Source: Homarus americanus (lineage: Eukaryota; Arthropoda; Malacostraca; Decapoda; Nephropidae). Taken from it: a stretch of 64,000 nt of DNA. Below, piece by piece: positions 22,026-61,564 of this stretch (position 1 is its first letter; each line of letters starts with the position of its first letter). Under the pieces are notes generated by a model. It saw only the letters and a list, made by a program, of their open reading frames with translations. It had not been told where the DNA came from and ran no database searches. A program made the position numbers and the translations under genes. The stretch is from positions 5,592,329 to 5,656,328 of the forward strand of contig NW_024756914.1 in assembly GCF_018991925.1 (NCBI RefSeq). The letters are read 5' to 3'.

Positions 22026-22047
22026 CTGCTGCTCGTCGTCATCATCA
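22026..22047 (-). CDS. candidate terminal micro-exon (22 nt)
   Basis: Acceptor TTTATGTTTTATGTTACAG, then TGATGATGACGACGAGCAGC + AG, then the weak donor GTGACG. A further GTGAGG at 22016-22011 would give a 31-nt exon. In the frame carried from the 29.0 and 23.2 kb exons it reads M-M-M-T-T-S-S; a different preceding phase would give DDDDEQQ, which looks more protein-like. The downstream flank GTGAGGCTACACTTTACC is the shared module sequence. Confidence 0.4.
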
Positions 22048-22157
22048 CTGTAACATAAAACATAAATAACATGTTGTATTAAACAGATAATAAAGACAAT
22101 AACAAACACGATCAGTATCTTTATTACGTATAAACATGATCACTAAATTTACCTGTG
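22048..22157. other. module intron flank
   Basis: Contains the ATAAAACATAAAT box and the ATTAAACAGATAATAAAGAC stretch that lie upstream of the micro-exon acceptors. Confidence 0.5.
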
Positions 22158-22830
22158 TAATAATAATAATAAACGGTTTATTAATAGAGTTGCAGCCGGT
22201 GGCTGAAAATATACAGACTTACATTTGATTTAGACATAATGATATAATATGCATTGAATACATTTACAGGGCTGTACAGTACATAAATCAGGAGTTGTTT
22301 ATTATTTTCACAATAGATGGGATGGTGCTGTTCTTATATCTATCGGTGCGGGCTCTGATGGGCTGAATTTTGTTGTAGTGGCGGACTGCGCGAGTTGGGT
22401 GGGGGGCTGCCTGTAGCAGGTGGCGGCGATGGCGAGGGTGGTGCAGTAGTCCACGGCCAAACCTTTCCAGTGCTTGGTGGTGGAGGTCACTGAGGGATGG
22501 CATTTCCAGGGTGGAGAGAGCGTTGGTGTAGCCGGAGTATTCTGCGCCGAGCATGATTCTGCAGGCCCTTTTCTGTACCTTCTCTAGCTGACGTTGTTGG
22601 GTGGAGTTGAGAGAAGACGACCAGGCTGGTGACGCATACGTTAGTTTGGGGAGAATAAAGGCGTTGTAGATGGTCCTCAGCTCTGGCGTGGGTGTCCCAA
22701 GTGACCTAAGTCTTCGTAGCATGTAGAGACGGTACGAGGCTGCCTTGACTGTGTTATTTACATGGGCCTTCCAGTCAAGTTTGTTGTCTATAGTTACACC
22801 CAGGAGTTTGGCAGACTGCACCAGCTGGAG
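22158..22830 (-). pseudogene. LINE D 3' half (RT thumb and C-terminus)
   Basis: An open 177-codon frame (22288-22821) gives AKLLGVTIDNKLDWKAHVNN, YRLYMLRRLRSLGTPTPELR, LTYASPAWSSSLNSTQQRQL and EKVQKRACRIMLGAEYSGY. This is the region after the YxDD box in Jockey/CR1-group non-LTR reverse transcriptases; KLLGVxID and PKLTYASPAW are characteristic. The 3' UTR ends AATAAACCGTTTATTATTAT, an (TTA)n tail. 5'-truncated, but uninterrupted as far as it goes, so probably fairly recent. It sits in an intron of the host gene in the same orientation. Confidence 0.9.
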
Positions 22831-22832
22831 AG

Positions 22833-22950
22833 GATGTGTGTGTGTGTGTGTGTGTGTGTGTGTGTGTGTGTGTGTGTGTGTGTGTGTGTGTGTGTGTGTG
22901 TGTGTGTGTGTGTGTGTGTGTGTGTGTGTGTGTGTGTGTGTGTGTGTGTG
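22833..22950. repeat. (GT)n microsatellite
   Basis: About 58 perfect GT units. Confidence 0.98.
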
Positions 22951-23110
22951 CTATGGATGTGGAAGTGAGTGTTACAGGTGTGGGGTAGGTGCTACAGGTG
23001 TGTGGTGGTGGTGAGTGTTACAGGTGTAGGAGTAAGATGCTACAGGTGTGTGGTGGTGGTGGTGAGTGTTACAGGTGTAGGAGTAAGATGCTACAGGTGT
23101 GTGGTGCTGT
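22951..23110 (+). repeat. 48-bp minisatellite, short field
   Basis: Two to three units of TACAGGTGTGTGGTGGTGGT + GAGTGTTACAGGTGTAGGAG + TAAGATGC, the same family as the large fields at 36-46 kb. Confidence 0.9.
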
Positions 23111-23167
23111 ACATGATGGCAGCATATACGTACAGATAAAGTAGATCTGTGTAGCTTTCTCCTCAAC

Positions 23168-23201
23168 TGATGCTGCACTGGTTCTCAATTAAGTCATATT
23201 C
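23168..23201 (-). CDS. candidate micro-exon (34 nt), possibly decayed
   Basis: Acceptor TTTATATTTTATTTTACAG, exon beginning GAATATGACTTAATTGAGAA and ending GCATCA, then the donor-like GTTGAG. In phase 0, which the 43-nt exon at 29.0 kb predicts, it reads EYDLIENQCSI without a stop. The other phases contain stops. Both intron flanks match the module (CTACACAGATCTACTTTA; CATGATGGCAGCAT on the plus strand). Confidence 0.4.
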
Positions 23202-23264
23202 CTGTAAAATAAAATATAAATTCGATGACATCACACTGACAATAAAAAGTGTCTGGCATTATCT

Positions 23265-23400
23265 GATCCACAGAGCAGGTAACACCTTTATGTTTACTAT
23301 TTATAAGAAACCTACTAATATGTGTTCATATATTCTTCATAATTATATACTATGTGTGGTTATCAGCATAAACGAGTAGCATGCGCACCTACAGTGATTT
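23265..23400 (+). pseudogene. Penelope-like element (PLE) scrap
   Basis: Plus frame gives FTIYKKPTNMCSYILHN, the KPTNxxxYI signature of Penelope-like reverse transcriptases. It is followed by GTGGTTATCAGCATA and GCGCACCTACAGTGATTTA, terminal sequence also found at 40.42-40.46 kb, and then a (TA)n tract. Most of the element is gone. Confidence 0.65.
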
Positions 23401-23406
23401 ATTTGC

Positions 23407-23529
23407 ATATATATATATATATATATATATATATATATATATATATATATATATATATATATATATATATATATATATATATATATATATATATATATAT
23501 ATATATATATATATATATATATATATATA
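23407..23529. repeat. (TA)n microsatellite
   Basis: About 61 TA units, adjoining PLE and SINE sequence. Confidence 0.97.
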
Positions 23530-59308: not shown

Positions 59309-59377
59309 GTGTATGTTGTCATGATGGCAGCCTAACTATATGACGTACAGTAACCATGTATGGCCTCTCTCTCTCAC

Positions 59378-59419
59378 CCCTTTCTCTCTCCCCAACGCCA
59401 TATGTCTTCTTTCTTCATT
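59378..59419 (-). CDS. exon (42 nt), MKKEDIWRWGERK
   Basis: Acceptor TTTTTTCTTTTGTATTCCAG, exon AATGAAGAAAGAAGACATAT to GAGAGAAAGGG, donor GTGAGAGAGAG. The first A completes AGA (Arg) with the 60.5 kb exon; then MKKEDIWRWGERK and GG. The plus-side flank (GTCATGATGGCAGC) is the diverged module, so this exon may be the ancestor of the array. Confidence 0.62.
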
Positions 59420-59492
59420 CTGGAATACAAAAGAAAAAAAAATTGGGTGTCGCAAAAAAACTGAGAATAATATTGCGTTTACTAACAGACGT

Positions 59493-59547
59493 GTGTGTGT
59501 GTGTGTGTGTGTGTGTGTGTGTGTGTGTGTGTGTGTGTGTGTGTGTG
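59493..59547. repeat. (GT)n microsatellite
   Basis: About 27 GT units. Confidence 0.97.
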
Positions 59548-59689
59548 TAATTGCTTTTGTGCGTGGGAATAGTTGGAATTATAATATAGTATAATATAAA
59601 ACCAATATAAATTAATTGTGTTTCTTCATCATTGTCAACAAGACCCTTTACTGTACTCTTCATTTCCCTTATTAAGGTTATTTAGTGTG

Positions 59690-60485
59690 TTAGTAGATCA
59701 CTTGGCATCATTATGAGCACCTGTGAGCCACTTGGCATCATTATGAGCACCTGTGAGTCACTTGGAACTATTATGAGCACCTGTGAGTCACTTGGCACCA
59801 TTATGAGCACCTGTGAGTCACTTGGCACCATTATGAGCACCTGTGAGTCACTTGGCATCATTATGAGCACCTGTGAGTCACTTAGCACCATTATGAGCAC
59901 CTGTGAGTCACTTGGCATCATTATGAGCACCTGTGAGTCACTTAGCACCATTATGAGCACCTGTGAGTCACTTGGCACCATTATGAGCACCTGTGAGTCA
60001 CTTGGCATCATTATGAGGACCTTAGTCACTTGGCACCATTATGAGCACCTGTGAGCCACTTAGCACCATTATGAGCACAGTCACTTGGCACCATTATGAG
60101 CACCTGTCACTTGGCACCATTATGAGCACCTGTGAGTCACTTGGCATCATTGTCACTTGGCATCATGAGCACTGAGTCACTTGGCATCATTATGAGCATC
60201 TGTGAGTCACCTGACACCATTATGAGCACCTGTGAGTCACTTGGCACCATTATGAGCACCTGTGAGTCACTTGGCACCATTATGAGCACCTGTGAGTCAC
60301 TTGGCATCAATGTGAGCACTGTGAGTCACTTTTCATCATTATGAGCATCTGTGAGTCACCTGACACCATTATGAGCACCTGTGAGTCACTTCGCATCATT
60401 GTGAGCACCCGTGAGTCACTTGGAATCATTATGAGCATCTGTGAGTCACCTGACACCATTATGAGCACCTGTGAGTCACTTGACA
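59690..60485 (+). repeat. 30-bp minisatellite, about 26 copies
   Basis: Unit GAGCACCTGTGAGTCACTTG + GCATCATTAT. Divisible by 3, giving false ORFs of MSTCESLGTI type on plus and DSQVLIMVPS type on minus. Confidence 0.95.
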
Positions 60486-60486
60486 T

Positions 60487-60519
60487 CACACACACACACA
60501 CACACACACACACACACAC
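60487..60519. repeat. (CA)n microsatellite
   Basis: About 16 CA units, 20 bp from the donor of the next exon. Confidence 0.95.
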
Positions 60520-60540
60520 GATTCATGACACAATACGCAC

Positions 60541-60702
60541 CTATGGACGGTGTAACCAGACAGAGCGAAGGCCTGATGTTTGTCTCCCGTTACATAAACA
60601 CCGTCACCCACCAGCACGTCAAGACGCTTCAGCTGGTTGGCCAAAACCTGAAGATCTTGGTCACTCAGGTGACTCCCAGGTAACACCAGGTAACCCAATT
60701 GC
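60541..60702 (-). CDS. exon 2 in view (162 nt, 54 codons) of the micro-exon gene
   Basis: Minus strand: acceptor TTATCTTTCCCGCCCTCAG, then G-CAA-TTG, ending GTCCATAG and donor GTGCGT. The first G completes ATG (Met) with the preceding exon. Reads QLGYLVLPGSHLSDQDLQVL, then ANQLKRLDVLVGDGVYVTGD, then KHQAFALSGYTVH and AG. Codon use is balanced and no repeat underlies it, unlike most ORFs here. The spacing LxYLVLxxxxLSDxDLxxLAxQLxxLxVL recalls leucine-rich repeats of the ribonuclease-inhibitor/NLR type; the preceding exon has a similar stretch. That is inference; no family is recognised. Confidence 0.75.
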
Positions 60703-61413
60703 CTGAGGGCGGGAAAGATAACGCTGTTGAACATTAGACTGTCATAATTTCATCATATTAGATCAAACATGATGCTCACATGTTTACTGTACTGTAAATA
60801 AAGAGAGAACCAATACAACCTTTATGTGATGGTACACTATAAGCCGTTCAAAATTCCCTTGCAGCTGAAGCATAATAGTGAGAGTAGGGAACACAACATC
60901 TCTTCCTAATTTAGATAATATTTTTTTTTCATATTAAGCAACCTATTTCACTGTCAACTTCTTGTCACCATCTAGAATAAATTTATAACCCCACGGGACA
61001 AGAAAAACGGGTTACTGAATATGGTGAAACCCCTTGGGTACGAGGGCCTCTCTCTCCTGAATAAAATCGTCTGGCATTAACCAAATAAAATATTAAAAGT
61101 GACGTCCAATAGTGAAGGGGTTAGTGGAGATAGTTTCTTAGGATTGAAAGAAGAGAAACATCTTCAGCCATTGTACTCGTAGAGGAAAGTTAACGTTTTC
61201 TGGACCACGTGAGATGGTGCCGCTTCACAAGGCTCAATGACTGACAGAAGTTATGTATGGTGATGTGTCAGTATTATTAGTCCTTCAGGAGGTTAGAATT
61301 TTATCATCTTGGCGACTTGGTTCATTATAATAGAAAAGTTGTTCAATGTACATAGATTATTAATAACAAGCATGTTAAACAAATAGTCTTTACAGAGTGA
61401 GTGTTTAGCTTAC
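60703..61413. other. intron, nothing else recognised
   Basis: About 710 bp between two good exons; no repeat or ORF of note. Confidence 0.55.
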
Positions 61414-61564
61414 ATGTTTTCTGGCTGTAGTTGTTGAGCCACCTGGGCTGCCCAGTCTATGTGATCAGTATCAATCCCGGAGAGGAACAAGTCAAGACCA
61501 CATATAATGTTTGGCAGCTGGCGAGGCAGTAGTGCTGGAGTAACCCCCGCGGGCACATGCAGTC
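61414..61564 (-). CDS. exon 1 in view (151 nt) of the micro-exon gene
   Basis: Minus strand: acceptor GCTGTTTTTTTTTCTCCAG, exon GACTGCATGTGCCCGCGGGG and onward to GAAAACAT, donor GTAAGC. Entered with two bases needed (xGA), it reads LHVPAGVTPALLPRQLPN, then IICGLDLFLSGIDTDHIDW, then AAQVAQQLQPEN and AT, which joins G of the next exon as Met. Non-repetitive and open only in this frame. Further 5' exons must lie beyond 63.2 kb or outside the window, because LINE D fills the upstream intron. Identity unknown. Confidence 0.75.

Follow-up and report, generated by a model that had tools for sequence, protein, structure and literature searches.

A tandemly duplicated phase-2 exon and the predicted C-terminal tail of an NLR-like NACHT gene in the American lobster

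We analysed a 64,000-nucleotide stretch of the genome of the American lobster, Homarus americanus (contig NW_024756914.1, positions 5,592,329 to 5,656,328; hereafter the window), which lies on scaffold C33581 (11,306,751 bp) and carries the 3′ end of the gene LOC121857092 on its minus strand. This gene is NLR-like by its domain plan. The explanation that we favour, with moderate confidence, is that a short phase-2 exon was duplicated in tandem at the 3′ end of this NACHT gene and that the length of the protein's likely helical tail would be set by the number of copies spliced in. Our searches covered 2.21 Gb in 34,269 contigs; the assembly at NCBI comprises 2.29 Gb in 47,245 scaffolds (PMC13286009).

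Exon chain and host gene

NCBI's predicted isoform X4 of LOC121857092 is a protein of 1,097 residues (hereafter P0002). Residues 904-1097 of P0002 are identical to the joined translation of x1, x2, x3, e0, either e1 or e2, e3, e4, e5, x29 and x23. These exons, the main NACHT exon and an unused exon start are as follows:

68400-65749 (window-equivalent, right of the window), minus strand: main NACHT exon of LOC121857092, an 884-codon open frame
61414-61564, minus strand: x1, 151 nt, AG/GT bounded; leucine-rich repeat (LRR)-like region; P0002 residues 903-952
60541-60702, minus strand: x2, 162 nt, AG/GT bounded; LRR-like region; P0002 residues 953-1007
59378-59419, minus strand: x3, 42 nt, phase 2-2; MKKEDIWRWGERKG; in P0002
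50157-50186, minus strand: e0, 30 nt; EADFALRIQ; in P0002
49990-50019, minus strand: e1, 30 nt; EQEAAEQRR; X4 uses either e1 or e2
46334-46363, minus strand: e2, 30 nt; EQEAAEQRR; identical to e1
39968-39997, minus strand: e3, 30 nt; EQEAAKQRR; in P0002
36691-36720, minus strand: e4, 30 nt; EQEAAEQRR; in P0002
32696-32725, minus strand: e5, 30 nt; DRDEVVQIV; in P0002
29005-29047, minus strand: x29, 43 nt, phase 2 in and 0 out; LLGSLLQDPDVVNR; in P0002
23163-23201, minus strand: x23, terminal coding exon; EYDLIENQCSIS followed by TGA; in P0002
22018-22047, minus strand: x22, exon start with a homologous acceptor flank and without a donor; unused by X4

A sequence-only reading of the window had placed a host gene here, with minus-strand exons of 151, 162 and 42 nt followed by six 30-nt exons bounded by AG and GT; all are present, within the predicted lobster protein of LOC121857092. 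It had also given the six 30-nt exons one shared phase and supposed that any of them could be skipped in frame. We compute phase 2 in and 2 out for all six (e0-e5), as for x3, and the frame stays open to the final stop in all 64 subsets of e0-e5, with or without x3. The chain is free of stops as far as 29.0 kb, as stated there, and onward to the TGA at 23163. Its four copies of EQEAA(E/K)QRR are e1-e4, of which the X4 protein holds three; the X4 model would imply either skipping of one copy or mapping ambiguity among identical exons. The exon placed there near 29.0 kb exists (29047-29005); the outer limit given in that reading, 22026, falls within x22, which X4 does not use and which is possibly an alternative last exon or 3′ untranslated region. 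The short exons x3 to x23 correspond to P0002 residues 1008-1097, i.e. 90 of 1,097 residues.

One argument of that reading fails: it had held that chance does not explain six equal lengths, yet the exons are not independent, four of them being recent copies and all six sharing one acceptor flank. The bare count of 30-nt exon-like sites is not above the background at neighbouring lengths. AG-N30-GTRAG with a pyrimidine tract occurs seven times on the minus strand (e0-e5 plus a site at 40249) and zero times on the plus strand, and the minus-strand counts at lengths of 27, 28, 29, 31, 32 and 33 are 1, 7, 4, 2, 5 and 2. Such counts would suit a rival explanation in which the short exons are not real, but splice-like remnants of a repeat, the gene ends soon after x2 and NCBI joined the pieces wrongly. 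This rival would also account for the related protein P0003, which ends three residues past its x2 exon, and for a second copy of the locus (see below) in which the exon lengths are not kept. It is hard to reconcile with the x2-x23 chain, where every boundary and the frame are intact across nine introns and a stop stands at the end. Moreover, the NCBI pipeline derives numbered isoforms mainly from aligned transcripts, and we consider this rival very doubtful.

The open frame of the main exon contains a NACHT domain (1e-19), which Pfam matches in P0002 (1.5e-19) and in all six aligned family proteins. NLRP3 is the best PDB sequence match to the family profile (3.4e-13), and HEPN_DZIP3 is matched in one of the six family members (1.1e-4), which is not P0002. 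The N terminus of P0002, MGTPQQPPGSSSQQTTTAFDEEE, has no hydrophobic stretch by eye, and N-terminal helices are predicted in its AlphaFold model. A genome search with P0003 gave at least 55 matches over many contigs (45 of 86 candidates scored), and judging from these LOC121857092 is one member of a gene family in the lobster genome. An immune function of its product may be presumed from the NLR-like domain plan.

Relatives of the exons before the tail are also found in the genome: x1 has ~80% DNA identity to other contigs, and x2 has paralogues in C29042, C13046, C26796 and C25495. No short-exon unit was found within 9.5 kb after x2 in C25495 (best E 0.43), or at E ≤ 1 in the stretches searched of C13046 and C26796. 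C29042 contains one weak unit-like exon (E 0.019) on the minus strand, near contig base 650 close to the contig end and ~20 kb past the x2 relative; a phase-2 reading would give VTGDGI and a stop, and this is a possible single-unit ancestor state. The ends of proteins P0004-P0007 are uninformative on the tail: three of them (P0004, P0006 and P0007) are labelled partial, and the contig behind P0005 is 5,080 bases long.

Duplication of the short exon and its minisatellites

An acceptor flank of ~40 nt is homologous in nine exon starts (e0-e5, x29, x23 and x22). Eight of the nine had gone into the flank profile that found them, x23 (E 0.0051) being the one that had not; when six units were left out in turn, the profiles recovered all six, though with weak scores (E 0.0019 to 0.42). 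We further compared units by local alignment against 200 shuffles, with e1 standing for e1-e4. In the acceptor flank, all 15 pairs of the six unit types beat every shuffle, and 16 of 21 did once x3 was added; the corresponding figures were 6 of 21 for downstream flanks and 0 of 21 for the exons. The upstream flank of x3 beats all shuffles in one of six pairs (e1) and its downstream flank in two of six (e1 and x23), so that x3 is possibly a diverged unit.

The most recent layer of this history is e1-e4. Exons e1, e2 and e4 are identical together with the next 120 nt, and e3 departs from them at a single exon base, which turns E into K, and at three positions in the next 120 nt; identity among the four is thus 29-30/30 in the exon and 117-120/120 in the downstream intron. 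Upstream of e2, 48 of 60 bases match, which resembles a duplication edge. On these alignments, e1-e4 are recent copies of one exon, and common descent by recent duplication accounts for the equal length and phase of the 30-nt exons. The tail as a whole grew as a single short exon of phase 2 was duplicated again and again, mostly beside minisatellites.

Minisatellites (arrays with a score of 120 or more) start 45-71 nt past seven of the ten short-exon units, and their repeat units are related by eye:

57960-59307: 34-bp minisatellite, 71 nt after x3
49681-49930: 48-bp minisatellite, 60 nt after e1
44859-46274: 48-bp minisatellite, 60 nt after e2
37933-39908: 48-bp minisatellite, 60 nt after e3
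36233-36631: 48-bp minisatellite, 60 nt after e4
28787-28960: 49-bp minisatellite, 45 nt after x29
22965-23106: 51-bp minisatellite, 57 nt after x23

Besides these arrays, most of the x2-x3 intron is taken up by 26 tandem copies of a 30-bp repeat (59698-60488 in the window).

This arrangement suggests a mechanism. The duplicated unit would consist of acceptor, exon, donor, ~60 nt and the edge of a minisatellite, and unequal crossing-over between units and minisatellites would spread copies, most recently producing the four near-identical 30-nt copies. Of the scored matches to a 231-bp unit around e1, eight exceed 200 bases, and each of them lies in LOC121857092 or its second copy (e1-e4, x23 at 72% and three in the second copy). 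The minisatellite alone matches other contigs (C28403, C27910, C1295, C952, C19666 and others).

Contig C26702 contains two exon-like units at 215406-215447 (42 nt) and 215729-215767 (39 nt; both lengths by eye), which in a phase-2 reading would encode KLTEKLARIEGLR and KFTEMLARIEEL. The two are 76% alike, and behind the first one the flank and minisatellite match those downstream of e1-e4 at 72-75%; compared with the profile, the upstream flanks of the two units give E 0.013 (weak) and 1.3 (no match). In the 14 kb examined there we found no host gene and no P0002-family match better than E 0.17.

The same evidence bears on a rival explanation that treats the copies as passengers. On this view a small in-frame exon was multiplied by unequal crossing-over driven by the minisatellites, the copies are tolerated because they keep the frame, their allelic number may vary, splicing ignores them and tail length has no role. 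The exons and downstream introns of e1, e2 and e4 are equally identical, minisatellites abut seven of the ten units, the second copy has three EQEAA-like units where the window has four, and P0003 is a relative without the tail; each of these would be expected of passengers. Less expected are splice sites and frame kept intact in six 30-nt units, including the older e0 and e5, and an NCBI model that uses five of these six. We regard the passenger explanation as a substantial possibility, though not the leading one.

Bolder than the explanation we favour is a splice-adjustable ruler, in which a micro-exon cassette spread by its own minisatellite lets cells or tissues set the length of a charged helix behind the LRRs and tune receptor assembly, the coding of the older units having changed beyond recognition between conserved splice flanks. 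On this reading, the two related units in C26702 may mean that the cassette is mobile. The ruler seems to us rather unlikely. Faster change in exons than in flanks was examined by gapped identity over 15 pairs and not adopted: one pair reached p<0.05 for the upstream flank over the exon (e0-e5, 0.020) and 0 of 15 did so with both flanks taken together, so that it is left as a possibility.

Predicted tail and the inverted second copy

The AlphaFold model kept for P0002 has a mean predicted local distance difference test score (pLDDT) of 70.4 and a predicted template modelling score of 0.56. In structural comparisons, Foldseek included, it aligns with NLRC4, NOD2 and NLRP3 from residue ~217 to 1006-1012, with a root-mean-square deviation of 10-19 over the whole length, and helices and strands alternate from ~771 to 1008. 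The helical charged segment proposed in the sequence-only reading is borne out to the extent that the tail is modelled as one helix (residues 1010-1076, over x3 to x29). Block pLDDT is 60-75 at the EQEAA blocks (1032-1061), 37-51 at 1011-1030 and 47 at 1071-1080.

The predicted mRNA would string ten-residue blocks into this likely helical C-terminal tail, and each block gained or lost would lengthen or shorten the helix by ten residues. With a variable number of EQEAAEQRR-R repeats, the helix could set the distance of the last residues from the LRR-like end, and a change in that distance may adjust how the receptor binds partners or packs into oligomers.

Scaffold C33581 contains an inverted second copy of the locus at 5.816-5.854 Mb, ~180 kb away. 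Its x1 and x2 are ~99% identical to those of the window, its x22 matches at 97.9% over 291 nt, and its x23 has QCSIS with a stop in the matching position. Its alignment, 5,089 columns long, counts 395 gap positions and 307 mismatches, and its NACHT stretch contains 25 stops. This second copy is probably the source of P0001 (Hamer_G009398), and it is probably either an artefact of assembly or a paralogue that has decayed. Because gaps exceed mismatches and the k-mer quality value (QV) of the American lobster assembly is 22.59 (PMC13286009 Table 1), we favour unpolished or misplaced allelic sequence. As evolutionary evidence the second copy was rejected either way, its indel load being too high.

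This gap excess, the stops and the QV also invite a further rival, namely that the array in the window is itself partly an assembly artefact, with allelic or unpolished sequence placed twice and a true copy number that is not four. It is at odds with the introns after e1, e2, e3 and e4, which differ in length (3,626, 6,336, 3,247 and 3,965 nt), as do the minisatellites after the four copies, and with e3, which differs from the other copies in both exon and flank. We think such an origin improbable.

Returning to the explanation we favour, namely a tail whose length follows the number of duplicated exons spliced in, several observations weigh against it. First, P0002 is a prediction, and mapping ambiguity could explain why one EQEAA copy is absent from it. 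Second, no Pfam LRR model matches P0002 at E ≤ 0.5, so that its LRR part rests on fold; the joined tail peptide likewise has no Pfam LRR match, its four Pfam matches all being under the curated cut-off. Third, the other four AlphaFold models have mean pLDDT of 49.5-58.9, and the alignment had six rows, among which P0003, the sole relative with a complete-looking end here, stops before the tail; with so few rows the evidence for the helix is weak. Fourth, similarity among the e1-e4 exons does not exceed that of the intron that follows them, and we make no claim of selection on these copies for that reason. Fifth, the units of the second copy measure 31, 26 or 29, 29 and 30 nt by eye (three of four are not 30 nt), its x3 is not intact, its e5 donor is not kept and x29 was not found there in a homology search of its sequence. 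If the second copy is real DNA, phase is not kept and constraint is weak.

Comparison with known systems

NLR diversity is usually seen as variation in gene number or in LRRs. In human NLRP3, frame-preserving 171-bp LRR exons are alternatively spliced, and the loss of such an exon makes the protein shorter and can abolish its activity (PMC6642158). LOC121857092 resembles NLRP3-type NLRs in having repeated frame-preserving exons in its C-terminal part. Unlike the NLRP3 exons, which are 171 bp long, encode LRRs and are backed by transcript data, the lobster exons are 30 nt long, lie past the LRR-like part, encode a predicted charged helix and are known from DNA and predicted models.

Two further systems offer likenesses. 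Schistosome micro-exon genes have symmetric exons of 6-36 bp, thought to yield protein variation via alternative splicing, and within a single gene a pattern of exon lengths is noted to recur; micro-exons make up ~80% of the coding region, and nearly all of the encoded proteins are secreted or membrane-anchored (PMC5825161, PMC10526429). The lobster tail likewise contains short symmetric exons, but its short exons x3 to x23 encode 90 of 1,097 residues of an NLR-like protein with no signal peptide evident by eye. Aphid bicycle genes have many small internal exons, nearly all of phase 2 (~17 exons on average), and are implicated as gall effectors (PMC9168663). Exons x3 and e0-e5 are also small, internal and of phase 2, and we claim no sequence or domain relation.

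From its title, a 1988 report by Davis et al. is said to concern tandemly repeated 81-base exons encoding a repeat in Schistosoma mansoni; the lobster exons differ in length (30 nt) and organism. Among crustaceans, LvNLRC of the Pacific whiteleg shrimp is an NLR that reportedly takes part in antiviral immunity; the main text of its description contains neither 'exon' nor 'isoform' and so describes no exon array, unlike the present account of the lobster gene (PMC12370184). The titles and abstract openings among the literature matches listed describe no micro-exon array in an NLR and no such lobster array. Frame-preserving exon splicing in NLRs, short symmetric exons and small phase-2 exons are already known.

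In an invertebrate NLR-like gene, an array of micro-exons that leaves the frame safe would, if true, offer a means of varying receptor geometry by splicing. The locus also illustrates how a gene tail may be built from one short exon beside a minisatellite, and it calls for caution, as short-read annotation can miscount identical 30-nt exons.

Elsewhere on the minus strand of the window, the open frames at 62989-62381, 11023-9777 and 32696-32274 look by eye like broken fragments of reverse-transcriptase or long interspersed nuclear element (LINE) type.

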